From NCBI GenBank assembly GCA_017569305.1, contig CP069418.1, positions 3,100,001-3,164,000 on the forward strand: a stretch of DNA of 64,000 nt, in the 5' to 3' direction. The notes below the pieces were generated by a model. That model saw nothing but the letters and a program-made list of their open reading frames with translations, was not told the origin of the DNA and searched no databases. The stretch is from Clostridiales bacterium FE2011 (GTDB lineage Bacteria; Bacillota; Clostridia; Christensenellales; Aristaeellaceae). Position numbers and translations under genes: made by a program. Positions 3,251 to 64,000 of the stretch are shown here, piece after piece; within the stretch, counting starts at the first letter, position 1; each line of letters starts with the position of its first letter.

Positions 3251-3265
3251 ACGGAGGTGATCCGG

Positions 3266-4549
3266 ATGGGATACACAGAGGACAGGATCAGGAAACTGCT
3301 TTCAGATAGCGTACAGGATCAGCTCCGGTATCTGTACGGTTCAGACCGAAAAATAATTGAAACGCAGACACAGCGTTATGCCGGTCTGCTCAGCCGCTTT
3401 ACGGCTATTTTCGGGGAGCGCGAAAATGTGCAGCTGATCAGTGCGCCCGGAAGAACGGAAATCGGCGGCAATCATACGGATCATAACCACGGCAGGGTGC
3501 TCGCGGCATCTGTGAACCTGGATGCGCTGTGTGCTGTCAGTCCCCGGGACGACATGAAGGTGCGTTTTCACAGCGAAGGATATGACGCCATTGAGATGGA
3601 CCTGACGGACCTGTCTGTGATTCCTGAAGAAAAAGGGACGACACGGGCACTGATCCGGGGTGTGGCTGCCGGTATGAAGAAGGCAGGGTACAGAATCGGC
3701 GGCTTTGACGCTGCTGTGACATCCACAGTGGCAGGCGGCAGCGGCCTGAGCAGTTCAGCGGCCCTGGAAGTGATGCTTACCGGAGTACTGGACAGCCTGT
3801 ACAACGCTTTTGAGATGCCCTATGTGCTTCGTGCGCAGATCAGCAAGCAGGCAGAAAACGAATATTTCGGGAAACCTTCCGGATTGCTGGATCAGATGGC
3901 CAGCGCGGCAGGCGGACTGGTGACCGTCGACTTCCGGGATACAGATCATCCGGAAGTGGAGGCGATTTCCTATGATTTCGCCAAGAAGGGTTATTCACTC
4001 GTTGTTGTAGCCACAGGCGGATCACATGCAAACCTGACAGATCAGTATGCGGCGATTCCGGCGGAGATGAAGAGCGTGGCGGAATGTTTCGGCCAGCCGG
4101 TACTGCGCGGTCTGACCGGAGAACAGATCATGGAGAAGATCAGTGACCTGCGTACCAAAGTCAGCGACCGGGCGCTTCTGCGGGCTTTCCATTTCATCCA
4201 GGAAGACGAGCGTGTGCCGGAGCAGGTAGCTGCCCTGAAGAAAGACCGGATCGGAGATTTCCTGCAGCTGATCATTGACAGCGGACGGTCCAGCTATATG
4301 TACCTGCAGAATATCTACGCAGATCCTGCGGACCAGAGCCTGAGCCTTGCCCTGTGCATGGCAGAAGATATGCTTCGCGGCAAAGGCGCATGGCGGATTC
4401 ATGGCGGCGGATTCGCGGGAACGACGCTGAACTTTGTTCCGTTGGAAAAGGTGGAACAATTTGTAGAGACGATGAACAGTGCATTCGGGAAAGACGCATG
4501 CAGTGTGTTGAATATTCGCCCTGTCGGCACAGCAAGAATCGATTTTTAA
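3266..4549 (+). CDS. galK: Galactokinase
   Basis: GHMP-family kinase that phosphorylates galactose at C1 with ATP, the first committed step of the Leloir pathway. The 427-residue product carries the galactokinase signature PGRTEIGGNHTDHNHG at about 61-76 and the GHMP ATP-binding loop GGSGLSSSAA at about 157-166. The C-terminal RIHGGGFAGT is the third GHMP motif. An in-frame GTG lies at 3257, but GGAGGTGA (3253-3259) is the ribosome site for the ATG at 3266. No galT or galE is seen nearby. Confidence 0.95.
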   Translation: MGYTEDRIRKLLSDSVQDQLRYLYGSDRKIIETQTQRYAGLLSRFTAIFGERENVQLISAPGRTEIGGNHTDHNHGRVLAASVNLDALCAVSPRDDMKVRFHSEGYDAIEMDLTDLSVIPEEKGTTRALIRGVAAGMKKAGYRIGGFDAAVTSTVAGGSGLSSSAALEVMLTGVLDSLYNAFEMPYVLRAQISKQAENEYFGKPSGLLDQMASAAGGLVTVDFRDTDHPEVEAISYDFAKKGYSLVVVATGGSHANLTDQYAAIPAEMKSVAECFGQPVLRGLTGEQIMEKISDLRTKVSDRALLRAFHFIQEDERVPEQVAALKKDRIGDFLQLIIDSGRSSYMYLQNIYADPADQSLSLALCMAEDMLRGKGAWRIHGGGFAGTTLNFVPLEKVEQFVETMNSAFGKDACSVLNIRPVGTARIDF

Positions 4550-10894: not shown

Positions 10895-10912
10895 TAACGG
10901 GCAAGATGAATC

Positions 10913-10940
10913 AGGGCTGTTGCGTCGCAACAGCCCTTTT
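10913..10940 (+). terminator. Rho-independent terminator after rpmA
   Basis: An 11-bp stem GGGCTGTTGCG / CGCAACAGCCC with a one-base apparent loop (in practice a small loop) is followed by TTTT. It lies between rpmA and metG. Confidence 0.85.
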
Positions 10941-10966
10941 AGTCAATTATGATGGAGGAATGAACC

Positions 10967-12976
10967 ATGAGTGAGACCAAAAAGACGTTCTACATCACCA
11001 CGCCGATCTATTATCCGTCCGGCAACATGACCATCGGCCACACCTATACCACTGTGGCGGCTGATACCATGACCCGGTTCAAGAAGATGCAGGGCTATGA
11101 CACCTATTTCCTGACCGGTACGGACGAGCATGGCCAGAAGATCGAGAAGAAGGCGGCGGAAGCCGGCGTTACCCCGATCCAGTATGTGGACAAGATCGTC
11201 GCGGAGACGCAGGATCTCTGGAAGCTCATGGACATCCAGTATGATGACTTTATCCGCACCACCGAAGAACGTCATACCAAGGTTGTGCAGAAAATCTTCC
11301 GCCAGTTCTATGAGCAGGGGGACATCTATAAGGCTGAGTATGAGGGTATGTACTGCACTCCCTGCGAAAGTTTCTGGACGCCCACCCAGCTGGTGGAAAA
11401 GGACGGGGTGAAGGTCTGCCCCGACTGCGGACGTCCCTGCCAGCCCATGAAGGAAGAAAGCTATTTCTTCAAGATGAGCAAATACCAGGACTGGCTCATT
11501 GACTATATCGAAACCCATCCGGACTTTATCCAGCCTGCCAAGCGGGCAAACGAAATGCTGACCAATTTCCTGCGTCCAGGCCTTCAGGACCTGTGCGTGA
11601 GCCGTACCAGCGTCAAGTGGGGTGTTCCGGTGGATTTCGATGAGAAGCACACTGTGTACGTCTGGATTGACGCGCTGAGCAACTACATCACCGCGCTGGG
11701 ATACGGCACGGATCATGATGAACTGTTCAGGAAGTACTGGCCGGCGGATATCCACCTGGTAGGTAAGGAAATTGTTCGTTTCCACACCATTTACTGGCCG
11801 ATCATGCTGCATGCTCTGGGCCTGCCGCTGCCGAAGCAGGTATTCGGCCACGGCTGGCTGCTGTTCGGCGCGGACCGGATGAGCAAGTCAAAGGGCAATG
11901 TGGTCTATCCCGGCCCCATTGTGGCCCGTTACGGCGTGGATCCGCTCCGCTATTACCTGATGAGGGAAATGCCCTTCGGAGCGGACGGGAACTACACCAA
12001 TGAATCCTTCCTGACCCGCATGAATGCGGACCTGGCGAACGACCTGGGCAACCTGGTCAGCCGGACCGTGGCGATGATCGAGAAGTATTTTGACGGCATC
12101 CTGCCCGCCTGGACAGACGCAGTGGACGCTGAACTGGATACCCCCCTGCAGGAGCACTGTGCCGCCCTGCCGAAACTGGTGGACGAGCAGATGGATAAAC
12201 TGCAGTTCTCCCAGGCTCTGGCGGAAGTATGGAAAGTCATCGGCGAATGCAACAAGTATATTGACCTGACCCAGCCCTGGGTCCTGGGCAAGGATCCGGA
12301 GAAGAAGGACCGGCTGGCAAACGTGATGCTGACCCTGGCGGAATGCGTACGGTTTGCTGCTGTGCTGATCGGACCCTTCATGCCCTCTACACCCGCCCGC
12401 ATCTTCGCTCAGCTGGGTGTTACGGATGACAGCCTGAAGACCTGGGACAGCCTGAAGGCCTTCGGACTGCTGCCTGCCGGTACCAAGGTGCAGAAGGGTG
12501 AAGCCCTGTTCCCGCGGATTGACGTGAACAAGGAACTGGAAGCCCTGGCCGGCGGCAAGGAAGAAAAGAAGGCTGCCAAAGCTGAGGAAAAGCAGCAGAA
12601 GAAGGAACAGAAGGCTGAAAAGAAGCACGAAGAACCGGAATATCCTGCTGAGATCGATATCAATGATTTCTTCAAGTGCAAGATCCAGGTGGCCCGCGTG
12701 CTGGCCTGTGAAAAGGTAGAGAAGAGCACCAAACTGCTGAAGTTCCGCCTGGGACTGGGCAAAGACGGAGAACGCACCGTGGTCAGCGGCATCCAGAAAT
12801 GGTATGAGCCGGAAACCCTGGTAGGAACCCAGGTGGCGGTAATCACCAACCTCAAGCCTGCCAAGCTGGCCGGCATCGAAAGCCAGGGCATGATCCTGTC
12901 CGCCCTGGACGATAACGGCAACCTTAGGCTGGTCTCTGTCGGAGAAGGCGTTGAAGACGGCGCCCTGATCGGATGA
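10967..12976 (+). CDS. metG: Methionyl-tRNA synthetase (with C-terminal tRNA-binding domain)
   Basis: Class I aminoacyl-tRNA synthetase of 669 residues. The HIGH-like segment IGHT lies near residue 23-26 and the KMSKS loop appears as RMSKSK (M305). A CxxC..CxxC zinc knuckle (YCTPCE, VCPDCG) lies near 126-150. After a Lys/Glu/Gln-rich linker (about 530-560) there is a Trbp111/EMAP-like OB-fold domain (about 565-669) that aids dimerisation and tRNA binding. GGAGG precedes the ATG. It overlaps tatD by 4 bp, a frequent Firmicutes pairing. Confidence 0.97.
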   Translation: MSETKKTFYITTPIYYPSGNMTIGHTYTTVAADTMTRFKKMQGYDTYFLTGTDEHGQKIEKKAAEAGVTPIQYVDKIVAETQDLWKLMDIQYDDFIRTTEERHTKVVQKIFRQFYEQGDIYKAEYEGMYCTPCESFWTPTQLVEKDGVKVCPDCGRPCQPMKEESYFFKMSKYQDWLIDYIETHPDFIQPAKRANEMLTNFLRPGLQDLCVSRTSVKWGVPVDFDEKHTVYVWIDALSNYITALGYGTDHDELFRKYWPADIHLVGKEIVRFHTIYWPIMLHALGLPLPKQVFGHGWLLFGADRMSKSKGNVVYPGPIVARYGVDPLRYYLMREMPFGADGNYTNESFLTRMNADLANDLGNLVSRTVAMIEKYFDGILPAWTDAVDAELDTPLQEHCAALPKLVDEQMDKLQFSQALAEVWKVIGECNKYIDLTQPWVLGKDPEKKDRLANVMLTLAECVRFAAVLIGPFMPSTPARIFAQLGVTDDSLKTWDSLKAFGLLPAGTKVQKGEALFPRIDVNKELEALAGGKEEKKAAKAEEKQQKKEQKAEKKHEEPEYPAEIDINDFFKCKIQVARVLACEKVEKSTKLLKFRLGLGKDGERTVVSGIQKWYEPETLVGTQVAVITNLKPAKLAGIESQGMILSALDDNGNLRLVSVGEGVEDGALIG

Positions 12977-13746
12977 TGGAATGGTTTGACAGCCACTGCC
13001 ATGTGGATGAAGAAGCCTTTGATGAAGACCGGGAAGAAGCACTTGCCCGTATGGCGGAGCACGGCATTACCCGGTACGCGGTGATAGGCTCCGATATGGA
13101 AACCTCCCGGCGGGCCATCCGGTTTGCCCGGGAACACGCGGGAGCCATCGCCGTCGGCGGTATCCACCCCCATGAAGCCAAGGGCTTCCGGGAGGAAGAT
13201 CTCGCGGAGATGGCGGACTGGTACCGGAAGGGAAAGATCAAAGCCATCGGCGAGATCGGGCTGGACTTCTACTACGACCACAGCCCCAGGGGAATCCAGC
13301 GGGAAGTCTGCATTCGACAGATGGAGCTGGCATGGGAACTGAAAGCACCCGTGGCCTATCATATCCGGGATGCACATGCTGAAATGCTGGAAATCATGAA
13401 AGGCATGAAGGCAAAACTGACCGGCGGGATCATCCACTGCTTCTCCGGAAGTGCGGAAATCGCGAAAGAGTACCTGAAACTTGGGTACTACATCTCCTTT
13501 GCGGGCCCGCTGACCTTCAAAAAGGCACCGAAGCTGCAGGAAGCCTGCCGGATTGTTCCGCAGGACCGGCTGCTGATCGAAACCGACAGCCCCTACATGG
13601 CGCCGGAACCGGTCAGGGGACGGCGGAACGAACCGGCGAACGTCCGGTATGTCGGTATGAAGCTGGCGGAAATACGGGGAGAAAAACCCGAAGAAGTGGC
13701 GGAATATACGACAGAGAATGCGAAAAAAGTATACGGGCTTGAGTAA
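12973..13746 (+). CDS. tatD: TatD-family metal-dependent hydrolase
   Basis: A 257-residue TIM-barrel amidohydrolase (TatD/YcfH); members act as 3'-5' exonuclease/DNase or D-aminoacyl-tRNA-type hydrolases. Metal-binding motifs are in order: DSHCHVD at 6-12, GEIGLDFYYD, AYHIRDAH, GGIIHCFSGS and LIETDSPYMAP. Translation starts inside the metG stop (overlap). A terminator follows. Confidence 0.93.
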   Translation: MMEWFDSHCHVDEEAFDEDREEALARMAEHGITRYAVIGSDMETSRRAIRFAREHAGAIAVGGIHPHEAKGFREEDLAEMADWYRKGKIKAIGEIGLDFYYDHSPRGIQREVCIRQMELAWELKAPVAYHIRDAHAEMLEIMKGMKAKLTGGIIHCFSGSAEIAKEYLKLGYYISFAGPLTFKKAPKLQEACRIVPQDRLLIETDSPYMAPEPVRGRRNEPANVRYVGMKLAEIRGEKPEEVAEYTTENAKKVYGLE

Positions 13747-13750
13747 TTAA

Positions 13751-13786
13751 AGAACGGTCTTCCCGGCAGAGAAGGCCGTTCTTTTT
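13751..13786 (+). terminator. Rho-independent terminator after tatD
   Basis: Stem GAACGGTCTTC / GAAGGCCGTTC (one G-T pair) with an 8-nt loop and a T5 tract. The T tract runs directly into the first hairpin of the adjacent repeat array. Confidence 0.85.
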
Positions 13787-13860
13787 CGTCCGCAGGCGGA
13801 CGAATGATATGTTTGCCTTTGGCAAACGTGATATATTGAGCCTTCGGCGAAAGTGATGAT
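13785..13860 (+). repeat. Hairpin array, part A (RTGATAT spacers, plus orientation)
   Basis: Short palindromes alternate with a fixed spacer. TTCGTCCG/CGGACGAA (13785-13804) and GTTTGCC-TTT-GGCAAAC (13811-13827) are each followed by a 7-nt RTGATAT spacer (ATGATAT at 13804-13810, GTGATAT at 13828-13834). A third unit, TTGAGCC-TTC-GGCGAAA, is degenerate. It belongs to the same element class as 13922-14074 and 18826-18942. Confidence 0.8.
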
Positions 13861-13921
13861 TAGCGTGAACAAGGCGCTATACGGGTGCGAAGAGATAAAT
13901 AACTGGTTGAGTATATAAAAC
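13861..13921. other. Intergenic segment between hairpin array parts A and B
   Basis: About 60 bp separating the two oppositely oriented array parts. I see no open frame, promoter or clear hairpin in it. Confidence 0.4.
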
Positions 13922-14074
13922 ATTCGTCGAAGACGAATATATCACTTTTGCCGAAGGCAAAAATATCATATTGGGCGTCAGCCCAATATATCACATTTTG
14001 ACGAAGTCAAAATATATCATTTCGGCAGAAGGTGCAGACTTCTGCCGAATATTCATAGGCAAATGCCTATGAAT
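13922..14074 (-). repeat. Hairpin array, part B (spacers inverted)
   Basis: Six consecutive hairpins: ATTCGTC-GAA (13922-13938), TTTTGCC-GAA (13946-13962), ATTGGGC-GTCA (13970-13987), ATTTTGAC-GAA (13995-14013), TTCGGCAGAAG with a 7-nt loop (14021-14049) and ATTCATAGGC-AAAT (14051-14074); all stems are perfect. The first four are followed by exactly 7 nt of ATATCAY, the reverse complement of RTGATAT. The array ends 30 bp before topB. Function unknown. Confidence 0.85.
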
Positions 14075-14104
14075 GTGCTAATATATTATGGTTGGAGGTG
14101 CGTC

Positions 14105-16276
14105 ATGGGAAAGATTGTGGTGGTTGCCGAGAAGCCCAGTGTGGGAAGAGATATTGCACGGGTACTCGGCTGCCGGACAGGCGGTGACGGATGCCTGATC
14201 GGGGACCGGTACATCGTTACCTGGGCTGTGGGGCATCTGGTGACACTGGTTGAGCCGAACGAACTGGATCCGAAGTATGAAAAGTGGTCCTTCGCGACGC
14301 TGCCCATCCTGCCGGAAACCATTCCCCTGAAAGTGATTTCCACAACCAGGGATCAATTCAGCAGGGTCAAAAAGCTGATTAATGATAAAGAGACAGATTC
14401 GCTGATTTGCGCAACAGATGCCGGGCGGGAAGGCGAACTGATTTTCCGGTATATCTATGAAAAAGCCGGCTGTACAAAGCCTTTCCAGCGCCTGTGGATC
14501 TCATCGATGACAGATGAAGCCATTACAGAAGGATTCCGGGATATCCGGCCGGGCGCGGACTATGACGGTCTGTATGAGAGTGCCCGGTGCCGGAGCAAAG
14601 CGGACTGGCTGGTCGGCATGAACGCCAGCCGGGCCTTTACGCTGAAATACAATACGCTTCTGTCTATCGGCCGGGTACAGACGCCGACGCTGGCGATCCT
14701 GGTGAAGCGCCGGAAGGAAATTGAGAACTTCAAGCCGGAAGGTTTCAGTACGCTGACTGCCGATTTCGGCGATTACAGCGGCGTATATTTTTCTGAAAAA
14801 CTGGATCCGGATACTCACCTGAAGGAAAAAGAAGACGCGGAAAAGATTGCCGCAGAAGTGAAGGATAAGACAGGTACCGTAATCCAGGCGGAAACCATCC
14901 GGAAGAAGGAACTTCCGCCGCAACTGTATGACCTGACCAGCCTGCAGCGGGATGCCAACCGTATGCTGGGCTTTACCGCGGATAAAACGCTGAAAACGGC
15001 CCAGAGCCTGTATGAGAAACACAAGGCGCTGACTTATCCCCGTACGGACAGCCGTTTCCTTCCGCCGGATATGATCCCGCGGGTGGTGCAGACCATGAAG
15101 CTGCTGCCCGAAGCCTACCAGAAGTTTGTGCCGGGTGCGCTGCCCGGTGGAAAACTGCCGGTGAGCAAACGGACCATTGACCAGACGAAGGTAACGGACC
15201 ATCATGCCATTATTCCCACCGCCAAGCGGTCTGATCCGTCCAAATTCAGCGAAGATGAACGGAAACTGTACGACATGGTGGCACGGCGGCTGCTGGCAGC
15301 CTTCTATCCGGCCTGTGACTATGACGCGACGAAGATTGTCACGAAGGTGGAGGAACATCTGTTCCGCACTACCGGCAAAGTGATTGTGAACAACGGATGG
15401 CATGACGTGCCGCCGCTGGAGAACCCGCCGAAGGCCAAGAAGAAGACGGCTGAGGAAGGGGAAAGCGAAAATCCGCTGCCGCCCCTGCAGGAAGGGGATA
15501 CCAGGCCGGTCCGCGGTACGAAGATCAAGGAAGACAAGACAAAACCGCCGGCACCCCATACGGACGCCAGTCTGCTGGCAGCCATGGAAACCGCAGGCAA
15601 GGAACTGGATGATGAAGAGCTGGTCCGGCAGATGAAGGGAAGCGGCATTGGTACGCCGGCCACCCGGGCAGCTATCATTGAGCGGCTGCTGAAGGTCGGG
15701 TACGCACAGCGGAAGGGTAAAACCCTGCAGGCCACAGACAAGGGCGTTATGCTGATCGACGTGGTCCCGGGTGAGCTTTCCAGTCCGGAACTGACAGGAC
15801 GCTGGGAACTGGCTCTGCATGATATCACGGACGGAGCGCAGGATCCGCAGCGTTTTATGGACGGAATTGCCCGGATGAGCAGCTTTCTGGTAGACTATGC
15901 ACGAAATACCGCCGCGGCTGTAAGCTTCCCGGCAGAAGAACGCAAATACGGTAAAGGCGGCGGAAAGAAGAAAATCACGGCGGCTCCGCTGCCCGGAACG
16001 GTCTGTCCCGTGTGCGGTAAAGGCGGAGTCCGGGAAAACGGCAGGGCCTTTGGCTGCACCGAGAAGGGCTGCAACTTCACCCTTTGGAAAGACTGTCTGG
16101 AAAAGGGCGGCGGGCCTGCGCTGACCGGGAAACTGGTGCAGCTGCTGCTGGAGAAAAAACAACTGCAGGGTTCCACGGGAATCCTGATGATCAAGGAGGG
16201 TCATCTGCTGTTCTATCCGAATGGCAGCGAACGGCCTTCCGTGGACCGGCCCATGGTTTATATCAAACAGCGCTGA
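14105..16276 (+). CDS. topB: DNA topoisomerase III
   Basis: Type IA topoisomerase of 723 residues that relaxes or decatenates DNA by single-strand passage. The Toprim metal motifs are VAEKPSVGRDIARVLG at the N-terminus and DAGREGELIFRYIYE near residue 103. The catalytic Tyr311 lies in LTYPRTDSRFLP. The C-terminus has a CPVCG..C..C zinc ribbon (about 635-660). GGAGGTG (14094-14100) marks the ATG at 14105; an earlier in-frame ATG at 14063 lies in the hairpin array. First gene of a run with the acidic protein and wecB. Confidence 0.95.
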   Translation: MGKIVVVAEKPSVGRDIARVLGCRTGGDGCLIGDRYIVTWAVGHLVTLVEPNELDPKYEKWSFATLPILPETIPLKVISTTRDQFSRVKKLINDKETDSLICATDAGREGELIFRYIYEKAGCTKPFQRLWISSMTDEAITEGFRDIRPGADYDGLYESARCRSKADWLVGMNASRAFTLKYNTLLSIGRVQTPTLAILVKRRKEIENFKPEGFSTLTADFGDYSGVYFSEKLDPDTHLKEKEDAEKIAAEVKDKTGTVIQAETIRKKELPPQLYDLTSLQRDANRMLGFTADKTLKTAQSLYEKHKALTYPRTDSRFLPPDMIPRVVQTMKLLPEAYQKFVPGALPGGKLPVSKRTIDQTKVTDHHAIIPTAKRSDPSKFSEDERKLYDMVARRLLAAFYPACDYDATKIVTKVEEHLFRTTGKVIVNNGWHDVPPLENPPKAKKKTAEEGESENPLPPLQEGDTRPVRGTKIKEDKTKPPAPHTDASLLAAMETAGKELDDEELVRQMKGSGIGTPATRAAIIERLLKVGYAQRKGKTLQATDKGVMLIDVVPGELSSPELTGRWELALHDITDGAQDPQRFMDGIARMSSFLVDYARNTAAAVSFPAEERKYGKGGGKKKITAAPLPGTVCPVCGKGGVRENGRAFGCTEKGCNFTLWKDCLEKGGGPALTGKLVQLLLEKKQLQGSTGILMIKEGHLLFYPNGSERPSVDRPMVYIKQR

Positions 16277-25734: not shown

Positions 25735-25807
25735 GGGGGTTTAGCTCAGCTGGGAGAGCGCCTGCCTTGCAAGCAGGAGGTCAGCGGTTCGATCCCGCTA
25801 ATCTCCA
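25735..25807 (+). tRNA. tRNA-Ala (anticodon TGC)
   Basis: Cloverleaf with acceptor GGGGGTT / AATCTCC, D-arm GCTC..GAGC, anticodon loop CTTGCAA and T-loop TTCGATC. The 3' CCA is not encoded. It lies in the 16S-23S spacer. Confidence 0.96.
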
Positions 25808-25814
25808 CTCACAT

Positions 25815-25888
25815 GGGTCGCTAGCTCAGTCGGTTAGAGCACCCGCCTGATAAGCGGGAGGTCGGTGGTTCGAGTCCACTGCGACCCA
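25815..25888 (+). tRNA. tRNA-Ile (anticodon GAT)
   Basis: Cloverleaf with acceptor GGGTCGC / GCGACCC, anticodon loop CTGATAA and T-loop TTCGAGT. CCA not encoded. It follows tRNA-Ala by 7 bp, giving an Ala-Ile order. Confidence 0.96.
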
Positions 25889-26015
25889 CACTCTTTCTCA
25901 ATTTGAGAAGAGGCACGCGCACCTTGACAACTGCACAGCAAAGAAACAAGATTCAGGAAAGACCAGTTAAAGGTAAAACAATTTTACTAAATTGGTCTCA
26001 GGATCAAGAACGACG

Positions 26016-54372: not shown

Positions 54373-55929
54373 ATGGGTAAAAAGCTTCTGGTTTTCCTGA
54401 TGATTCTCTCCCTGCTGGGAAGTTGTGTTTCCGTACTGGCGGATGACGCGGTAACTGTCTATACATCTGATTTCAGCAAGGATACTGACGGATGGTACGG
54501 CCGTGGAGCGCAGTCTGCCAGGACCGCCGAAAGCACGCTGAAAACCACCGGACGGCAGAGCAGCTGGAATTCCCCGGGACGGGATTTCGACCTGGTGGAG
54601 GGCGGCAAATATAACCTGAGCGTTGAAGTGAAGCAGGATGAGCTGGACAGCGCAAATTTCATGATCTCCATTGCCCACAGCGTGGAAGGAATGGAAACCT
54701 ATGAGAACCTGGCTTTCGGCAAGGCGAAAAAGGGCGAATGGACCACCCTGACAGGCAGTTACACTGCCGGTCACTTTGACCGCAGCGTACTGTATGTGGA
54801 GACCACCGGTGCCGATACGCTGGACTTTGAAATCCGCGCTTTTACGGTTACCGCGCCGGAAGGCGTACCGGAACCCAAGCCGACGGAGCCCCCTATGGTG
54901 ATCGAAGAAGCGGACAGCATGCCGAGCCTGAAGGAAATCTACGCGGACAAGTTTGATTTCGGCTCTGCCGCACCTCAGATGGTATTCCGTGATCCGAAAT
55001 GGATGAACCTGATGAAGGAACAGTTCAGCATCCTGACGCCGGAAAACGAAATGAAGCCGGATGCGGTTCTGGATGTGAACGGAAGCAAGGCGCTGCTGAA
55101 GGAAACCGGGAATGAAACAGCGGTGGCAGTTCATTTTGACGCGGCCAAGTCGCTGCTGCGGTTTGCACAAAGCAACGGAATTAAAGTCCATGGTCATGTA
55201 CTGGTCTGGCACAGCCAGACGCCCGAAGCGTTTTTCCATGAGGGCTATGACGCCAAGAAGCCGCTGGTGAGCCGGGAAGTAATGCTGGGCCGGATGGAGA
55301 ACTATATCAAGGGCGTTTTTGAATACCTTGACGCGAACTATCCGGGCGTGGTCGTTTCCTGGGACGTGCTGAACGAGGCGATTGACGACGGCAGCAACTG
55401 GCTGCGGAACAGCAACTGGAAAAAGATCATCGGTGAGGATTATCCGAACTTCGCCTATGCATACGCCCGGAAATATGCTCCGGAAGGCACGAAGCTCTAC
55501 TATAACGATTACAATACCGCTGTCGGGGGCAAGCTTCGGGGCATTGTGAAGCTGCTGAACACCCTGATTCCGGAAGGAAACATTGACGGTTATGGATTCC
55601 AGATGCATCACAATGTTTCTTTCCCCTCTATCCAGCAGATCAGGACGGCGGTGGAAACTATCGGCGCGCTGGGACTGCGGCTTCGGGTAAGTGAGCTGGA
55701 CGTGACGGTAAGCAATAACAGTGAAGCTTCCTTTAAGAAACAGGCAAAGTATTATGCGGACGTCATGAAAATACTCATTGATCACGCGGATCAGTTTGAG
55801 GCGGTCCAGGTATGGGGACTGACGGATATGATGAGCTGGCGGGGAAGCCAGTTTCCGCTGCTGTTTGACGGCAGGGGAAATCCGAAACCCGCGTTCTGGG
55901 CGGTCGCTGATCCGGAAAACTACCAGTAA
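54373..55929 (+). CDS. Secreted endo-1,4-beta-xylanase, GH10, with N-terminal carbohydrate-binding module
   Basis: A 518-residue enzyme. The signal peptide ends near VLADD. Residues about 27-175 form a CBM4/9/22-type beta sandwich (SDFSKDTDGWYGRG, YNLSVEVKQDE). A Pro/Thr linker leads to a GH10 barrel (about 190-515) with HGHVLVWHSQTP, acid/base Glu335 in WDVLNEAI and nucleophile Glu441 in RVSELDV, plus VWGLTDMMSWR. It cleaves xylan outside the cell and would supply oligosaccharides to the upstream importers. Confidence 0.95.
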   Translation: MGKKLLVFLMILSLLGSCVSVLADDAVTVYTSDFSKDTDGWYGRGAQSARTAESTLKTTGRQSSWNSPGRDFDLVEGGKYNLSVEVKQDELDSANFMISIAHSVEGMETYENLAFGKAKKGEWTTLTGSYTAGHFDRSVLYVETTGADTLDFEIRAFTVTAPEGVPEPKPTEPPMVIEEADSMPSLKEIYADKFDFGSAAPQMVFRDPKWMNLMKEQFSILTPENEMKPDAVLDVNGSKALLKETGNETAVAVHFDAAKSLLRFAQSNGIKVHGHVLVWHSQTPEAFFHEGYDAKKPLVSREVMLGRMENYIKGVFEYLDANYPGVVVSWDVLNEAIDDGSNWLRNSNWKKIIGEDYPNFAYAYARKYAPEGTKLYYNDYNTAVGGKLRGIVKLLNTLIPEGNIDGYGFQMHHNVSFPSIQQIRTAVETIGALGLRLRVSELDVTVSNNSEASFKKQAKYYADVMKILIDHADQFEAVQVWGLTDMMSWRGSQFPLLFDGRGNPKPAFWAVADPENYQ

Positions 55930-55982: not shown

Positions 55983-56011
55983 TTGAAAAGGAAAGTTAAT
56001 CGCGTTATACT
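55983..56011 (+). promoter_or_regulatory. Promoter of the pilus-like locus
   Basis: -35 TTGAAA (55983-55988), 17-bp spacer, -10 TATACT (56006-56011), 87 bp upstream of the first gene. Confidence 0.65.
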
Positions 56012-56097
56012 CAAAATGGTTATATATAAAATAATCTGTTTTTTTCCGGTAACTGTTTGACCGGATTATTCCGGAATACCGGACAGGGAGAGAACGG

Positions 56098-57021
56098 ATG
56101 GAAATCTATCATCCCAGAGATGAAGAACTGCTTCGGGAAATGAAGCGAGTGAGACGTTCCGACAGACGGAGACGCCTCTGCCGGGGCCTGATCATTTTGC
56201 TGACCCTGAGCATTGCCGTCGGCCTGTTTGTATTCCTCCGGTATTATCAGCTGGCAGTGGCACATGGGACCGGGATGGGGGATACACTGCCGGAGGGAAG
56301 CCTGCTGCTCATACGCAAACCGGAAGCAGGCCAGGTATACAATGCCGGGGATATCATCCTGTATGAGAAGAGACTGGCGAAGCCGGTTGAGCTGACGATC
56401 CTGAATTCCAAGGGAAAAACCCGGCGATACTGCCGGTACGTCTTATACAGGGACGTGGGAACAACCAGGCAGTATTACGCAACCACAGAAGGAGGCGCGG
56501 CCTGGATTTCTTCTGTTTCCGGCGCGGATATCTTTGAAAGCACCGAAGAGGGAACGGTCAGCATCGGTACAGAGAACCTGAAGAACGGCGAATACTGGCT
56601 GAAGGAAGTGGAAGCCTCCTACGGCCAGGCACTGCTGACGGATCCGATTCCGTTTGCGGTTGTCAACCCGGTCAAGACGCAGCTCAAGCGTGTGCTGGCA
56701 GGTCCCGGAGAACGGGTGGTACTGAGCCCCTACGCCGAGACAAGGGTAAACGGACTGGAAATCAGCACAGATTATACCTCCGGCCGGACAGAGGACGCGG
56801 CGCCGGAAGGGCGCCGGCTGATCATGGCCAGGGACCGGTATTTTGTCCAGGGAGATCAGCTGAGTCTTTCTGTGGACAGCCGGGAAACAGACTACAGTAC
56901 GGTTTCTGACGGAGAGATCCTGGGGCGGGCAGAATTTGCGCTCTGGCCGCTGCAGTGCTTCGGAAACCTGACAGGCAGACAGACGGTTGTCGCCGGTACG
57001 GAAACGGAGGCGGCGGAATGA
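56098..57021 (+). CDS. Signal-peptidase-I-like pseudoenzyme with CnaB-like insertion
   Basis: A 307-residue protein with one membrane segment (about 30-48) and an S26 signal peptidase fold. The nucleophile box GxSMxPTL reads GTGMGDTL (57-64), so the catalytic Ser is Gly59. The general-base Lys197 (LKRVLAGPGE) and the late GDQ..DSR box (252-262) are kept. Between the two halves, residues about 97-190 contain a SpaA/CnaB-like unit (GTVSIGTENLKNGEYWLKEVEASYGQALL). Non-catalytic signal-peptidase homologues such as SipA act as pilus assembly chaperones in streptococci; a like role is inferred. It overlaps the next gene by 4 bp. Confidence 0.75.
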   Translation: MEIYHPRDEELLREMKRVRRSDRRRRLCRGLIILLTLSIAVGLFVFLRYYQLAVAHGTGMGDTLPEGSLLLIRKPEAGQVYNAGDIILYEKRLAKPVELTILNSKGKTRRYCRYVLYRDVGTTRQYYATTEGGAAWISSVSGADIFESTEEGTVSIGTENLKNGEYWLKEVEASYGQALLTDPIPFAVVNPVKTQLKRVLAGPGERVVLSPYAETRVNGLEISTDYTSGRTEDAAPEGRRLIMARDRYFVQGDQLSLSVDSRETDYSTVSDGEILGRAEFALWPLQCFGNLTGRQTVVAGTETEAAE

Positions 57022-57980
57022 AAAAACTGTTTGCCTGGATTCTGGCCCTTTTGCTGCTGGTCGTCGTCATAGGGCATTTCCTGTATCCTGTGTTGTCTGA
57101 TCAGCTGGCCCGGCGCCGTGACGCGGAGATGATGCAGGAATACCGGGAAAAGACCTCGGCCATGGGCAAAGAGCAGCGTGAAAAACTGTTTGCGGAAGCG
57201 GCGGAATGGAACGCGGGGCTGGAAGAAATCCGGATGGAAGACATCTTCACAGCTGGAAATACAAGAACAACCCGGGATTACCAGAACCACATGAACGTCC
57301 ATTCCGGCATCATCGCGGAACTGGTCATCCCGGATATCGGTACTTCACTGCCGGTGTATCATTTGAGTACTGAAACGCCGGCAACCCGGAACCTGGTACA
57401 CGTGGACGTAAGCTCCCTGCCGGCGGACGAAAGCCGCGAGAATATCGTACTTGCGGGTCCCGGGGTGCTGAAGGCTGATGGATTGCTTGGGGATGTTGGC
57501 CTGACAGATGACCGGATGCTGGAGGATCTGGACAGGTTGATCCCAGGAAACCTGTTAATACTGAATGTGCTGGACCGGACAATGGTCTACCGGGTTAAAG
57601 GCGTTCAGATGCTGTCTCCCGCCGGACTGAAAGAACTGGATCTGACACCGGACGAAGGGGAGGAGAAGCTGACGCTGGTTTCCCAGCGGAAGGATCAACG
57701 GCTGCTGGTTCAGGCGGAGCGGATTCCGATCCGGGAAGCCAGGACGTTACTGGCAGAGAACGATCAGGCCACCTTCCCGTCAAACTGGCAGAATGTATTG
57801 CTGCTGGGGTGTCCTGTTCTGATCGCGGGACTGCTGGTGCTGTGGATTATTGAACTGATCCGGGGACGGTTCTACCGACTCCCCGATGAAGGGAAAAGGG
57901 AAGACCCGGAACAGCTGGAGAAGACTTTGGAATCAATGGATCAGATTTCGAATGAAATCAACGAGGTAGGAGAGACATGA
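57018..57980 (+). CDS. Class C sortase-like pseudoenzyme
   Basis: A 320-residue protein with class C sortase layout. An N-terminal anchor (3-22) is followed by a helical region with AEAAEWNAGL (matching AxxYNxxL), a beta barrel (GIIAELVIPDIGTSLPVYH to LLVQAERIPI, 97-238) and a C-terminal membrane segment (about 258-280). The catalytic His region aligns as IVLAGPGV (143-150) without His. The TLxTC motif reads TLVSQR (219-224), so Cys is Gln223; Arg228 remains. The only cysteine, Cys265, is in the C-terminal membrane segment. It cannot be a conventional transpeptidase. Confidence 0.75.
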   Translation: MKKLFAWILALLLLVVVIGHFLYPVLSDQLARRRDAEMMQEYREKTSAMGKEQREKLFAEAAEWNAGLEEIRMEDIFTAGNTRTTRDYQNHMNVHSGIIAELVIPDIGTSLPVYHLSTETPATRNLVHVDVSSLPADESRENIVLAGPGVLKADGLLGDVGLTDDRMLEDLDRLIPGNLLILNVLDRTMVYRVKGVQMLSPAGLKELDLTPDEGEEKLTLVSQRKDQRLLVQAERIPIREARTLLAENDQATFPSNWQNVLLLGCPVLIAGLLVLWIIELIRGRFYRLPDEGKREDPEQLEKTLESMDQISNEINEVGET

Positions 57981-58918
57981 AGAGGCGCGGAATGGGAATG
58001 TTGTGCATCGCGATGGCTTTCGCGCTGCTGTTTTCCTGTGTGTCTGTTCCGGCCGGCACGGAGGAAGCGAAGGACGGCTGGCTGAGTATTACCATAGGCG
58101 ACGACCGGAACGAGTTTGATCCGTCGGGCATCCGGATGGCTATCTATCTGATTGCTACTGGCGATTATGGCGACTGGACGATGAACGACGAATTCAGTGA
58201 TATCACAGTGTTCGTGCGGAGCGACGGTTCTGCCTCCGTGGATATGACGCTGAGCCAGATCCGGCAGCGGATCGCGGACCGGAAAATCAAACCGACCGCC
58301 GACGGCGTCAGCGATGAAAAAGGAAAAATAGAGTTCAAAGAGCTGGTTCACGGCATCTACTATATCGAAATGACAGCGGGGCCTGAGCGGCTGACGATGA
58401 GCGCCATGCTGCTGTCCGTGCCGAACAGCAGCGGCAGCATACAGGTACGGGCGATGGCCAAGTATGAATATATCACGCCGACGCCCAGCCCGACACCAAC
58501 ACAGAAGCCTACGTTTACGCCCTTTGTGCCGCCGGTTGATCCGGAAACGCCTTCACCGACGCCCTCTCCAACACCCTCTCCCACGCCGACTGCACCGGCA
58601 GAGGAGTCGCCTGAACCCACAGTTTCACCGGAGGAAGAATCACCGACGCCTGCTGTGTCGCCGAAAGCCACGCCGACAGCGTCTGAAAAGGTCACAGACA
58701 AACCCACTGCCCATCCGACAGAGAAACCGGTGACTGTCACGAAGAAGCCGGTCCCGACGCCGGTACCGGAGCATTATACGGAAGATAACACACCGGTTCC
58801 CAAACATGTGCCCACACTGCAGCCCCATCCCGGGGAAGTAACGGTGTCCCTTGAAGATTACGAGGTTGCGCTTGGACTTTACAATATCCAGATTCATGTC
58901 GGTGTCTGCTTTGAGTAA
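57977..58918 (+). CDS. Secreted Pro/Thr-stalk surface protein with pilin-like N-domain, no LPxTG
   Basis: A 313-residue protein. After the signal peptide (to about 27), residues 35-165 resemble the N-terminal domain of SpaA-type pilins (FDPSGIRMAIYLIATGDYG, GKIEFKELVHGIYYIEM). Residues about 166-285 form a low-complexity stalk of PTPSPT and TxKP repeats. It ends in a compact hydrophobic-acidic tail (VSLEDYEVALGLYNIQIHVG, then VCFE). No LPxTG or C-terminal membrane helix exists, so anchoring must differ from the downstream pilin. Overlaps the sortase-like gene by 4 bp. Confidence 0.7.
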   Translation: MKRRGMGMLCIAMAFALLFSCVSVPAGTEEAKDGWLSITIGDDRNEFDPSGIRMAIYLIATGDYGDWTMNDEFSDITVFVRSDGSASVDMTLSQIRQRIADRKIKPTADGVSDEKGKIEFKELVHGIYYIEMTAGPERLTMSAMLLSVPNSSGSIQVRAMAKYEYITPTPSPTPTQKPTFTPFVPPVDPETPSPTPSPTPSPTPTAPAEESPEPTVSPEEESPTPAVSPKATPTASEKVTDKPTAHPTEKPVTVTKKPVPTPVPEHYTEDNTPVPKHVPTLQPHPGEVTVSLEDYEVALGLYNIQIHVGVCFE

Positions 58919-58943
58919 AACCGGAAGGGAAGGTTCAGGAGTC

Positions 58944-60959
58944 ATGAGAAGATTGATTGCGATGCTTGCCGCGGGAATCCTGCTGTTCAGCGGGATATCC
59001 GCCTGCGCGCAGGCGCCTGCCCTTACGTATCCGGACAGGGATTATGAGGAGCTGGTTGTCGGCAACCCGACCCGGATGGACGGAAAGTTCTTTACCGGCA
59101 TGTGGGGAAATGCCACCACCGATATTGACGTCCGGACGCTTGTTCACGCGTATTACCTGGTTGAATGGGGCTACGACAGCGGTTTCCTGAGAGCCAACCC
59201 GGTTGTCGCTTCAGCGCAGGGTGTTTTTGAGGATTCGAAGGGCATCAGGATTTACCGGTTCCAGCTGGCGGATGACCTGTATTACTCCGACGGAACCGAG
59301 ATTACCGCCTGGGATTATGCTTTCTCCGTATTGTTCCAGGCGGCCCCTGAAATTGCCGAACTGGGCGGCTGCCCCATGGATTTGTCATACCTGGAGGGAT
59401 ATGAGGAATATATTTCCGGCGAAGTGTCTTATCTCTCCGGCGTCAGGGTGACCGATGACAGGATGATAGAGTTCCGCGTCAAACCGGAGGCGCTGCCGTA
59501 TTTCTTTGAGATGTACCGGATGGGCTTCCTTCCGTATCCCATTCATGAAATCGCACCCGGCTGCAAGGTATATGATGACGGGCAAGGCATCTATATCGGC
59601 AACGAAGATCCGGATGTGAAGGAGAAGATCTTCTGCACGGAGCTGCTTGAGGCTACCGTTATGGATCCGGAAAACGGCTATCTGTCCCATCCGACGGTGG
59701 GCAGCGGACCCTATGTGCTGACATCCTGGGACGGGGAGACTTGTACATTTGAGATCAATCCCTATTTCAAGGGAAACGCGGAAGGCTTCAAACCCACGAT
59801 TCCAAAGCTGCGTTTTACCCTGGCGAAGGATGAAGATATGATCGAAAAGCTGGAAGCGGATGAATTCCAGCTGCTGAATAAGGTTGTACGCCGGGATACA
59901 ATCACGAAAGGGATCGAACTGGTTTCTTCCGGCAAAGGCTATACACTGACCAATTATCCCCGGATCGGCCTGTCGTTTATTGTCTTTACACCGGACAGGC
60001 CGGCTGTGCAGGAAAAGAACGTCCGCCAGGCGATCGCTTACTGCATGGACAAAAAAGCCCTGCAGAATGAATACACGTATCTGTACGGTATTCCAGTGGA
60101 CGGCATGTTGGGCATCGGCCAGTGGATGTACGGCATGGTCAAGGGAACAGAGGACTATCCGGAAACCCTGCCGGATGATCCTACACCGGACGAAGAGGAA
60201 GCATATGATGCAAGAATTGAACAGTGGGAATCCCTTTCCCTGGATGGTGTGAAACACTATGAGCTGGACGTGGAAAGAGCCTCCAGGCTGCTGGATGCGG
60301 TCGGCTGGACGATGAACGAGAATGGCCAGCGGTTTGCTGCCGGACGGGATGATGTACGCTGCAAAAAGGTTCAGGGAGAACTGCTGAAGCTGGATTTGAC
60401 CCTCGCTTATCCGGAAAGTAACGAGATGGCGGAAGCTATGGAAGCATGGTTTGTTGAACCCCTGAAACAGGCCGGAATTCGCCTGACACTTGTGCCCATG
60501 ACAATGAATGACCTGGTGCATGCCTACCATGACCGGGATATTGAAGGCATCGACATGTTCTATGTGGCGGATGACTTCAACATTGAATTCGATCCACAGC
60601 TGTTCTTCCTGGCCGGAGATCCGGACGCGCCGAAGGAAGACACGCTGGCCTGGGCTCATGCGCAGATGTCGGAATATGCTCGTCTGATGCTGGAAACCGT
60701 GCCGAGCGACGCATTGGGCTTTGTACAGAAATGGATCACCTTCCAGGAACAGCTGAGCGACCTGCTGCCGCTGATCCCGGTATACTCCAACGTATACTAT
60801 GATTTCTACACCAGCGACCTGATGAACTATGACATTATCCGGTACATCACCTGGGGCGACGCCATTGTCGCGTCCAGCTTCTATAACGTGTATCAGTCCA
60901 TGGTGGACAGGGGAATCGATCCCACCGATACAGAGGACGATTTTGAAATATTACCGTAA
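58944..60959 (+). CDS. Family 5 (OppA-like) solute-binding lipoprotein
   Basis: A 671-residue binding protein. The signal peptide has a lipobox-like SGISAC (Cys21). SBP family 5 features are YRFQLADDLYYSDGTEITAWDYAFSV, SGPYVLTSWDGETCTFEINPYFKG and RQAIAYCMDKKALQNEYTYLYG. Such proteins bind oligopeptides, or serve as receptors. It lies inside the pilus-like operon, 25 bp after the stalk-protein gene, with no oligopeptide permease genes. An accessory role in the surface structure is possible. Confidence 0.85.
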   Translation: MRRLIAMLAAGILLFSGISACAQAPALTYPDRDYEELVVGNPTRMDGKFFTGMWGNATTDIDVRTLVHAYYLVEWGYDSGFLRANPVVASAQGVFEDSKGIRIYRFQLADDLYYSDGTEITAWDYAFSVLFQAAPEIAELGGCPMDLSYLEGYEEYISGEVSYLSGVRVTDDRMIEFRVKPEALPYFFEMYRMGFLPYPIHEIAPGCKVYDDGQGIYIGNEDPDVKEKIFCTELLEATVMDPENGYLSHPTVGSGPYVLTSWDGETCTFEINPYFKGNAEGFKPTIPKLRFTLAKDEDMIEKLEADEFQLLNKVVRRDTITKGIELVSSGKGYTLTNYPRIGLSFIVFTPDRPAVQEKNVRQAIAYCMDKKALQNEYTYLYGIPVDGMLGIGQWMYGMVKGTEDYPETLPDDPTPDEEEAYDARIEQWESLSLDGVKHYELDVERASRLLDAVGWTMNENGQRFAAGRDDVRCKKVQGELLKLDLTLAYPESNEMAEAMEAWFVEPLKQAGIRLTLVPMTMNDLVHAYHDRDIEGIDMFYVADDFNIEFDPQLFFLAGDPDAPKEDTLAWAHAQMSEYARLMLETVPSDALGFVQKWITFQEQLSDLLPLIPVYSNVYYDFYTSDLMNYDIIRYITWGDAIVASSFYNVYQSMVDRGIDPTDTEDDFEILP

Positions 60960-60989
60960 AAATACGGCCTGATAGCGGAGGAACAGTGC

Positions 60990-61385
60990 ATGGCGAAAAA
61001 CATGCTGAAGAGCCTTGGGCGTTTTGAACTGCTGGAACTGATCTACACGATGCGCAAGGAGAACCTGGAGCTGAAGGAGCGCTGCGAGGCGGCGGAGCGG
61101 AAAGTTGTCGAGATCCGGGAACAGACGGACAAGCAGCTGGATTACGCGCGCCGGGATTATGAGAACCGGATAGAGGAACTTCGGATGCAGGGCGCCGCGA
61201 AGGATCTCCAGATCCGGATGAAGAAGATAGAGGAGCAGCTTCGGCTGCTGCAGAAACTGACCATGGTGGATATCGACCTGCCGGAGCTGCCGACAGAGGA
61301 AGAGATTGAACAGGCGGCGAAGCAGGGAGCAGAAGAACCGGAAACGGAAACCGATACCCCGGAGGAAGACGGGAAAACTGAGTAA
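60990..61385 (+). CDS. Coiled-coil protein of unknown function
   Basis: A 131-residue soluble protein. Residues about 12-92 are a continuous charged coiled coil (ENLELKERCEAAERKVVEIR) and the last 40 are acidic and disordered. There is no signal peptide, so it is cytosolic. It lies between the OppA-like and signal-peptidase-like genes (15-bp gap to the latter). Not recognised. Confidence 0.72.
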   Translation: MAKNMLKSLGRFELLELIYTMRKENLELKERCEAAERKVVEIREQTDKQLDYARRDYENRIEELRMQGAAKDLQIRMKKIEEQLRLLQKLTMVDIDLPELPTEEEIEQAAKQGAEEPETETDTPEEDGKTE

Positions 61386-61399
61386 ACGAGGGATCAGCC

Positions 61400-61999
61400 A
61401 TGGCCAGGAAACCCAGGAGAGCCGATACACTGCCGGATCTGAACGAGATTGAATCCGAAATGAGCCAGGTCCGCAGCAAGGGAAAATTCAGGCAGGCACT
61501 GAAGGGCACCATCGGAACGTTTATCGTGGTGGCAGCCCTGGCAGTGATCGTGGCCTTCATCTTCCTGCCGGTTCTGCGGATTACGAACGGACACAATATG
61601 GAGCCCGGCTTCCAGCCCGGGGACATCGTACTGCTGACCAAAAGCGACGAAGTGAACAACGGTGAGATCTGCGCCTTTTACTTTAACAACAAACTGCTCC
61701 TGCGCCGCGTCATTGCCCGGGAAGGGGACACGGTGGAGATTGACGAAAAAGGCTATGTGAAGGTAAACGGGGAGTTCCTGGAGGAAGACGGATATATCTC
61801 AGAGCACGCACTGGGCCAGTGCGACATTGATTTCCCGTTCCGGGTACAGGCCGGACAGTTTTTTGTGCTGGGAGACAACCGGGACTATGCTTTTGACAGC
61901 CGGGCAACCAATTTCGGCTGCATTTCCCAGGAAGAGATCTTCGGAAAGCCGATGGCGCGGATTTACCCCTTCAACCGGCTTGCCTGGTTCGGATTCTGA
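61400..61999 (+). CDS. Signal-peptidase-I-like pseudoenzyme (second)
   Basis: A 199-residue S26-fold protein with a cytosolic N-terminus and one membrane segment (about 38-58). The nucleophile box reads NGHNMEPGFQPGD, so Ser is Asn66. The general-base motif KRV reads RRV (Lys to Arg102). The distal box GDNRDYAFDSRATNFG (158-173) is intact, so the fold is conserved while both catalytic residues are replaced, like streptococcal SipA. It is the last gene before the separately promoted pilin gene. Likely a pilus assembly factor, by inference. Confidence 0.78.
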   Translation: MARKPRRADTLPDLNEIESEMSQVRSKGKFRQALKGTIGTFIVVAALAVIVAFIFLPVLRITNGHNMEPGFQPGDIVLLTKSDEVNNGEICAFYFNNKLLLRRVIAREGDTVEIDEKGYVKVNGEFLEEDGYISEHALGQCDIDFPFRVQAGQFFVLGDNRDYAFDSRATNFGCISQEEIFGKPMARIYPFNRLAWFGF

Positions 62000-62058
62000 T
62001 GATTTGTATGCTGGAAAAAACAATCAACAAAACAGAAAACTGAGGAAAATGAAACAGA

Positions 62059-62101
62059 TGTACGCAAAAGCGTTGACAACTATTGGAAACACGCCTATAA
62101 T
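62059..62101 (+). promoter_or_regulatory. Consensus promoter of the pilin gene
   Basis: Perfect -35 TTGACA (62073-62078), 17-bp spacer, perfect -10 TATAAT (62096-62101). A TGTACGC element (62059-62065) is just upstream. It gives a roughly 100-nt leader before the pilin gene. Confidence 0.82.
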
Positions 62102-62215
62102 TACATCACAATAGAGAGCCTGTATACTATGTTACCGAATAACGGAAATCCATAAACAGTATTAGTTTGGTTAATCCGCTTAATAGCCAAAATAATGAAT
62201 GAGGGGATGCTGAAA

Positions 62216-63685
62216 ATGAAAAAACTGTTTGCTTTGATGCTGGCGCTGGCTCTGATGCTGACGGTAGTATGTGCCTTCGCAGAAAATGGTGGAGGAGAAG
62301 GCGGCGGAGAAACCGGAGGAGAGACGACAACCGGTACGAAGACAACCCCGAGCATTACGATTACCACCACTTCAAAAGATTCAGAAGCCGCAGTGGATAC
62401 GACGGCATATACGTGGTACCGGATCCTGGAAGCTGATATCGGATCTGATCCGGAAAGCAACGGTGTCAGCCAGTCCGGCGGTGCGGTATCCTATCATACG
62501 GACAGTGCGACCAAGGCAGAAGCCCTTGCAAACTGCGGCGTGTTTAAAGTGACGCGTGTCGGCGATTCCGACAGATGGTATGTGGAACTGAAAACGCCGG
62601 ATACCACCACGGGGGCCGATATTGCAGCTGCAATTGCAACGATTGATCTGAGTCTTTTCCCCACAGGAACCTTCAGCCAGACGGCAGTTGCCGGAACCGC
62701 TACCAGTGGGGATCTGGCTCCCGGTTATTACTATGTCAAATCCACGGCCGGTAAAAATGTGGCTGTGCAGACACTGACCGCGGTGGAAATTGAAGAAAAG
62801 AACGAGTTCCCGACCGTGGAAAAAGAAGTCGATGAGAGTGACGAAAATGCCCAGATCGGCGATGAGATTACTTTTACCATTAAAGTAAAAGTTCCGTCCA
62901 CGGCCAATGATCAGATTGTACTGACAGATACCATGAGCGCAGGCCTGAGCTATAAGTCCGTTGATTCTGTGAAAATGGGCGGAGGAGACGTAGCTGCCAG
63001 CAATTATACGGTTGCGGCCACGACTGACGGGTTTACCCTTACTTTGCCCAAGGCTTTGGTTGTATCTGCTGCTGAAGCGGCAGAACAAGATACCACCAAA
63101 GTTACAGAGTTTGAGATTGTATGTACGGCTGTACTTGACGGAGATGCCCAGACTGCCAATCCTGAAACGAACTCTGTGACCCTGGACTATGGCGAGCATT
63201 ATACAACGAAGCCCAAGACAGCGGAAGTCAAAACCTACGACTTTAAGTTTAACAAGGTCGATGGATCTACAGGCGATCAGCTGGCGGGTGCGGAGTTCCA
63301 GTTCCTGCTGGACGGAAATCCCATGAATCTGATTGAAGTGACACCTGGTGAAGTATACCGGATCGCACTGCCGAATGAAGAGGGCAGGACACAGACGATA
63401 ACAACCATCGGAAAGACTGTACGGATCTATGGCCTGGATACCGACGTGCAAGCCTACAGTCTGCAGGAAACAAAGGCGCCTACCGGCGGTTACAACATCC
63501 TGAAAGCTCCCGTTGAAGTAAAACCCAAAGACGGATCTTTCGGAGAAACAGACGTCAAGAACAATGAAGGCTCTGTTCTTCCCAGTACCGGTGGTTCCGG
63601 CACCACGATCTTCTATGTGATCGGCGGACTGCTGATCATCGGCGCGGGTGTGGTGCTGGTGGCCCGCCGCAAGGCACACGAATAA
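62216..63685 (+). CDS. LPSTG-anchored pilin-like surface protein
   Basis: A 489-residue sortase substrate. The signal peptide (1-22) is followed by a Gly/Glu/Thr-rich stretch, an N-terminal pilin domain (about 47-195), an isopeptide D2-like domain (about 200-340; FPTVEKEVDESDEN, LTDTMSAGLSY) and a SpaA/CnaB domain (341-450; FKFNKVDGSTGDQLAGAEFQF) with E-box YSLQETKAPTGGY. It ends LPSTGG (455-460), membrane helix and RRKAHE. Internal isopeptide bonds are likely. The ATG at 62216 has GAGGGG nine bases upstream; two earlier ATGs are less well placed. Backbone pilin of the locus. Confidence 0.9.
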   Translation: MKKLFALMLALALMLTVVCAFAENGGGEGGGETGGETTTGTKTTPSITITTTSKDSEAAVDTTAYTWYRILEADIGSDPESNGVSQSGGAVSYHTDSATKAEALANCGVFKVTRVGDSDRWYVELKTPDTTTGADIAAAIATIDLSLFPTGTFSQTAVAGTATSGDLAPGYYYVKSTAGKNVAVQTLTAVEIEEKNEFPTVEKEVDESDENAQIGDEITFTIKVKVPSTANDQIVLTDTMSAGLSYKSVDSVKMGGGDVAASNYTVAATTDGFTLTLPKALVVSAAEAAEQDTTKVTEFEIVCTAVLDGDAQTANPETNSVTLDYGEHYTTKPKTAEVKTYDFKFNKVDGSTGDQLAGAEFQFLLDGNPMNLIEVTPGEVYRIALPNEEGRTQTITTIGKTVRIYGLDTDVQAYSLQETKAPTGGYNILKAPVEVKPKDGSFGETDVKNNEGSVLPSTGGSGTTIFYVIGGLLIIGAGVVLVARRKAHE

Positions 63686-63703
63686 TACATATCGATTCGA
63701 AAG

Positions 63704-63731
63704 GCCCGGACTCTTCAGAGTTCGGGCTTTT
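63704..63731 (+). terminator. Rho-independent terminator after the pilin gene
   Basis: Stem GCCCGGACTC / GAGTTCGGGC (one G-T pair) with loop TTCA and TTTT. Confidence 0.88.
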
Positions 63732-63889: not shown

Positions 63890-64000
63890 ATGCGGAAGAA
63901 GACGATTACGGCCCTGCTGCTGGCACTCTGCCTGATGATCAGCGCTGCTGCCGGCCTGGCTGAACCGCCGGTACAGACCGAAGGGATTATCATCCCCGTG
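63890..64000 (+). CDS. N-terminal fragment of a secreted protein
   Basis: Thirty-seven codons are visible before the window ends. They encode a signal peptide (MRKKTITALLLALCLMISAA, then AGLAEPPVQ) and the start of the mature protein. GGGGAGG is 9 bases before the ATG. Product not determinable. Confidence 0.75.
   Translation, partial: MRKKTITALLLALCLMISAAAGLAEPPVQTEGIIIPV

Follow-up and report, generated by a model that had tools for sequence, protein, structure and literature searches.

A predicted sortase C pilus locus with conserved sortase-like and signal-peptidase-like pseudoenzymes in Clostridiales bacterium FE2011

The genome of Clostridiales bacterium FE2011 is a single 3.56 Mb contig, and the 64,000-nucleotide stretch analysed here (bases 3100001-3164000, referred to as the window) ends within a pilus locus. 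Judged from its sequence, this is a sortase C pilus locus with extra pseudoenzymes: a class C sortase whose motifs are intact neighbours an LPXTG major pilin, as in a sortase-assembled pilus locus, and two signal-peptidase-like proteins (SP1 and SP2) and a sortase-like protein (SRTp) with altered catalytic sites are encoded ahead of them. The preliminary description of this DNA had proposed that a full set of assembly enzymes was replaced by pseudoenzymes. Its residue claims are right and its headline claim is wrong, because the window boundary cut the locus, which continues beyond base 64000 with a GH5 gene, then the sortase C, then a giant adhesin. The genes are as follows.

56098..57021, plus strand: SP1, signal-peptidase-like, 307 aa, with Ser replaced by Gly59, Lys197 kept and a SpaA pilin-like insert at about residues 94-192.
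57018..57980, plus strand: SRTp, class C sortase-like pseudoenzyme, 320 aa, without catalytic His or Cys.
57977..58918, plus strand: CFE, secreted and basal-pilin-like, with a linker rich in Pro and Thr, the C-terminus ...DYEVALGLYNIQIHVGVCFE and no LPXTG.
58944..60959, plus strand: extracellular solute-binding protein of family 5, an orphan.
60990..61385, plus strand: CC, small protein of coiled-coil appearance, with neither a signal peptide nor a family match above cut-off.
61400..61999, plus strand: SP2, SipA-like signal peptidase homologue, 199 aa, with Ser replaced by Asn66 and Lys by Arg102.
62195..63685, plus strand: PIL, LPSTG major pilin of the SpaH/EbpB type, above the cut-off for that pilin model.
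63890-65107, plus strand: GH5 cellulase gene (PF00150, 3.5e-60), its first bases, 63890..64000, inside the window.
65124-66038 in window-equivalent numbering, past the window end: class C sortase with intact motifs (NF033745).
From 66204, past the window end: giant LPXTG adhesin with CnaB and SpaA domains.

The substitutions reported in the preliminary description (Gly59 in SP1, Gln223 without the catalytic His in SRTp, Asn66 and Arg102 in SP2) were all confirmed, as were the absence of frameshifts and internal stops, each of the three frames being open with a single terminal stop, and the LPSTG pilin. The neighbouring sortase C begins 17 bp after the GH5 gene, 1.1 kb beyond the window end; it carries LSGHRGLPSAKLF and TLMTCTPYGINTHRLLVRG, the motifs read being LSGHRG and TLMTCTPYG, and scores 247.7 bits for NF033745 (cut-off 160 bits). 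An unlinked active sortase had been suggested; a sortase with intact motifs was indeed found, but at the locus itself. The LPXTG-anchor family has two matches genome-wide, PIL and the giant adhesin. With an intact-motif sortase C and LPXTG pilins, the locus hence has the parts for covalent assembly. A class-B-like sortase elsewhere in the genome scores 103 bits, below its cut-off of 153.75, and two other signal peptidases have both Ser and Lys.

SRTp resembles class C pilus sortases (e.g. PDB 2w1j, 4d7w, 3g66) in its fold and its N- and C-terminal hydrophobic segments, and the Arg of the RLLV motif is also present in the FE2011 protein. In contrast to these enzymes it has neither His nor Cys: Gln223 occupies the Cys site, LAGPG stands in place of LSGHRG, and its score for the class C sortase model (107.6 bits) falls below the 160-bit cut-off. 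A profile search of 160 genomes placed SRTp in 14 genomes of the genus, all of which also have the sortase C; in a fifteenth, G020, only the sortase C was seen, at the end of a contig. Residue-level reading covered every one of the 14 SRTp copies, which lack both His and Cys (one stop counted in the G018 match is the gene's own end), and the sortase C of 12 of these genomes, G062 and G065 being left out. Among the best 120 of 269 database homologues, the catalytic His motif and the Cys motif each occurred in 0/120, 118 had no Cys in the core and 113 had LAGPG, with the regular expression used for the Cys site giving no residue in 14 of the 120 rows. Three of the database names shown for these homologues say 'sortase', so caution is needed where such pseudoenzyme genes carry that name. 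In a tree of 39 sortase sequences, a single branch (support 98) separated 23 active from 16 dead copies; the dead copies of sister genera sit on long branches (6.11 for L104, 2.3 for L101) and their placement is unsure, the L104 copy matching no family and being a counterpart of SRTp by position only. Automatic picks that proved to be wrong genes were left out (L036 for SRTp, L034 for SP2, L037 and L038 for sortase C). A literature search found nothing on a sortase pseudoenzyme within a pilus locus.

Both SP1 and SP2 score above the cut-offs of signal peptidase I models. SP1 matches the signal peptidase fold, with Gly59 at the position of the nucleophile and the general base Lys197 retained, and thus differs from SipA-like proteins, which have lost both Ser and Lys. 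Across 14 loci, SP1 lacks the Ser in 14 and retains the Lys in 14; among 120 database homologues, 113 lack the Ser and five have it. In SP2 both residues of the dyad are gone, and its best solved relative is SipA (4n31; 1.1e-10), with both lost sites in register. The Asn/Arg form of SP2, together with a one-residue insertion, occurs in the same eight loci in which SP1 has the inserted SpaA pilin domain. SP2 keeps Ser and Lys in G036, G018, G006 and G068 and has Thr and Lys in G065; the site in G012 is unreadable at a contig end. Orthologues with intact residues were thus found for SP2, in four sister genomes, and for none of the 14 SRTp copies. The SRTp tree, computed by a quick method, unites the eight genomes in a single clade (support 97), so that the SP1 insertion and the death of SP2 are one event, with no statistical evidence of coupling, and repeated co-evolution of the two is rejected. 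CC directly precedes SP2, and a similar pair, with an intact Ser-Lys signal peptidase, lies ahead of the pilus genes of another genus (L102, reverse, 2253-3487).

The comparison with SipA of Streptococcus pyogenes pili also brings out differences. There, a single such protein accompanies a class B polymerising sortase; here two are found with a pseudo-sortase, and the neighbouring sortase is class C. Moreover, SP1 has the inserted pilin domain and lost only the Ser. The non-catalytic role of SipA in pili is proposed and not proven (PMC4049620).

The preliminary description had judged decay of these genes unlikely, and pairwise dN/dS ratios (five pairs per gene) bear this out: they were 0-0.07 for SP2, 0.06-0.15 for SP1 and 0.09-0.21 for SRTp, compared with 0.03-0.09 for the sortase C and 0.08-0.26 for CFE, the ratios being rough in those pairs with dS above 1. 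The gene order is conserved in relatives, as is the overlap of the SP1 and SRTp genes, which is 4 bp in 9/9 loci measured. Related arrangements occur in sister genera. Read in order, G497 has an intact-motif sortase C and then two dead proteins, one SP1-like with Gly and Arg at the Ser and Lys sites and one SRTp-like in which Glu replaces His and Thr replaces Cys; after these come a basal pilin, whose ending consists of FDYGTPLWGGLLGTGDETP, a membrane helix and a basic tail, and finally a class-B-like sortase. The genes of G078 are similarly arranged; its SP1-like protein retains Ser and has Arg in the Lys position, and a degenerate protein with no family matches occupies the SRTp position. 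The G497 and G078 loci show that catalysis was lost at these positions outside the genus too. G540 has two tandem sortases C with intact motifs in both. Basal pilins of 1018 and 1749 aa (L101, reverse, 10896-15496, and L104, 4365-10611) end in a membrane helix of the xTG[DE]ETP type, with FDYxTPLxG ahead of it; the next gene encodes a class-B-like sortase, of which the L104 contig includes just the start.

CFE resembles a basal pilin in its position and, weakly, in its N-terminal half, for which the match is the basal pilin of L039 (27% across 163 aa, 4.6e-6); its match to SpaA is weak (0.015). Unlike LPXTG basal pilins, it has no LPXTG-type sorting signal of its own, no membrane helix and no basic tail, and instead ends in an invariant Cys motif, HVGVCFE in this genome, within the longer pattern IQ[IM]HVGVC[FY]E. 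Of 80 database homologues (P0121-P0200), 73 end [HY]VGVC[FYI][ED], the other seven look truncated or out of frame, and 0/80 contain LPxT[GSA] within their final 80 positions. As a DNA pattern, HVGVC[FY]E-stop was found in 13/100 relatives, all of the same genus (reversed control, 0); these and the HVGVCYD ending of G065 make up exactly the 14 SRTp genomes. In L039 and L041, from other families, and in L103 and L106, from other genera of the family, the basal pilins carry an LPQTG or IPQTG ending and a membrane helix, and the gene that comes next encodes a small sortase whose Cys motif is intact. A second CFE copy is located behind a giant LPXTG adhesin in G006 (L054:8269-9267). The nearest parallel for a short C-terminal signal on a surface protein without membrane helix or charged tail is the AbpA/SrtB system of oral streptococci, in which AbpA has the tail-less signal LPKTS-AVK and an adjacent active class B sortase (PMC4974636). 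That signal is unrelated to the HVG[DV]C[FY][DE] of CFE-type endings, and the cluster as read contains no class B sortase.

The ending of CFE belongs to a wider pattern. In FE2011 itself, [HN]xGxC[FY][DE]-stop occurs at four places, which are CFE, two surface proteins of more than 3,300 residues as read and one protein of 641 aa; three large CnaB-type surface proteins of this genome are listed here.

L063:7071-17000, minus strand: large CnaB-type surface protein ending [DE]EYxTPLGVxxIINHVGDCFD, without LPXTG.
L064:10017-11942, plus strand: large CnaB-type surface protein, same ending.
L065:1-10410, plus strand: large CnaB-type surface protein, same ending.

The pattern was found in 46/130 relatives, comprising 37/45 genomes of the genus and 9/33 others of the family (control, 0), and in 0/52 other genomes of the order. 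The search extended as far as class and phylum, where 0/397 genomes besides FE2011 had the ending and the reversed control matched three. We read 58 distinct motif proteins, 45 of them other than CFE. Most of those covered completely or over much of their length are surface proteins of the CnaB or MucBP type, although not each was domain-searched. Outside the search pattern, Tyr at -19 (36/44), Leu at -15 (40/45) and Gly at -14 (38/45) are conserved; a hydrophobic stretch (19-residue mean of at least 1.6) and LPxT[GSA] in the last 80 residues were each found in 0/57. Gln at -9 is present in 13/13 CFE endings and 0/45 other motif proteins; Val at -4 was used to split the two groups and is not independent evidence, and Gln at -9 is. 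A literature search for three motif strings found none. An association between the motif and the class B sortase was considered and rejected: in 37 genomes of the genus with both scans there was no clear tie, the motif being present in 30, of which five (54-85% complete) show no sortase, and five further genomes having a sortase without the motif.

Taken together, the analysis points to a pilus that is probably assembled by the sortase C, with SP1 and SRTp (and SP2 in this clade) acting as a non-catalytic membrane platform beside the active enzyme. The neighbouring sortase C would polymerise the pilin, and the two housekeeping signal peptidases would remove the signal peptides. The platform would bind pilin peptides or domains without catalysis and may deliver or retain the basal-pilin-like CFE, as proposed for SipA, with the inserted domain of SP1 possibly docking pilins through pilin-like contacts. 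Several points weigh against this interpretation. The structure models of SRTp and SP1 are of middling confidence (pLDDT 70.0 and 75.1), and four of the five Ser-bearing SP1 homologues also have the Lys, so that some SP1 proteins could be active. Furthermore, SipA accompanies a class B polymerising sortase and showed no detectable in vitro binding to pilin or sortase (PMC4049620).

An unlikely alternative is that CFE is bound through its C-terminal Cys signal by SP1, SRTp or both, which would act as the receptor and so hold the base of the pilus at the membrane or wall with no covalent sortase link. It draws on the exact match between HVGVC endings and the SRTp genomes, on the LPQTG or IPQTG basal pilins paired with small intact-Cys sortases elsewhere in the order and family, and on the Gln at -9 that is peculiar to CFE. 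However, such co-occurrence is expected anyway because CFE and SRTp share an operon; in G497 a dead SRTp-like protein stands beside a membrane-helix basal pilin and a class-B-like sortase, so the traits are separable, which argues against a strict link; and the HVGDC form is found on surface proteins of genomes that lack SRTp. We give still less credence to a broader version, in which the family replaced LPXTG on many surface proteins by a tail-less Cys signal of the form [DE]Yx[TAV][PA]LG...[HN]VG[DV]C[FY][DE], carried by giant adhesins and the pilus base, with non-catalytic sortase and signal peptidase receptors for that signal at the base in the pilus-bearing members, among them the signal peptidase with a spliced-in pilin domain.

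Hidden catalysis through other residues in one or more of the three proteins is improbable. The five Ser-bearing SP1 homologues, the Lys kept in every SP1 locus and the SP2 orthologue with Thr and Lys speak for it, but His115 and His128 of SRTp are also His in its active partner and so are not new catalytic residues, Ser222 lies at a Thr position of the active enzyme, and no SRTp homologue among the 120 has either motif. Slightly more improbable, in our judgement, is that the pseudoenzymes are neutral remnants being lost: the degenerate protein of G078 and the freely varying catalytic sites of SP1 and SRTp would fit such a course, but the dN/dS values (0-0.21) are similar to those of the active sortase, the frames are open, gene order and overlap are conserved, and SRTp is never found without the sortase C (14/14 genomes). 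The sortase-free, non-covalent assembly put forward in the preliminary description matched a window in which all enzymes of the locus are dead; with the intact-motif sortase C next door it is scarcely credible, and we reject it.

Among the surrounding genes, a GH10 xylanase-type gene lies directly upstream of the locus (window 54373-55929), and the six loci L026-L031 likewise have the GH5 gene separating the pilin from the sortase C. The family 5 solute-binding protein gene is kept together with the pilus locus across the genus, and no transporter permease gene was seen adjoining it. Directly behind the G068 pilin, transposase-like genes were noted by eye (L056:14442-17535). Adjacent tRNA-Ala and tRNA-Ile genes lie at window 25735-25889; such a pair is frequent in rRNA operon spacers.

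Overall, the interest of the locus is in its conserved sortase pseudoenzyme, its signal-peptidase/pilin chimaera and the tail-less Cys ending, restricted to one family, that surface proteins share with the pilus base. A conserved pseudo-sortase working next to an active sortase, in combination with the chimaera and a SipA-like protein, would allow the role of dead signal peptidases in pili to be tested in a class C system. Should the Cys ending anchor giant adhesins, it would represent a surface-display route with undescribed machinery.

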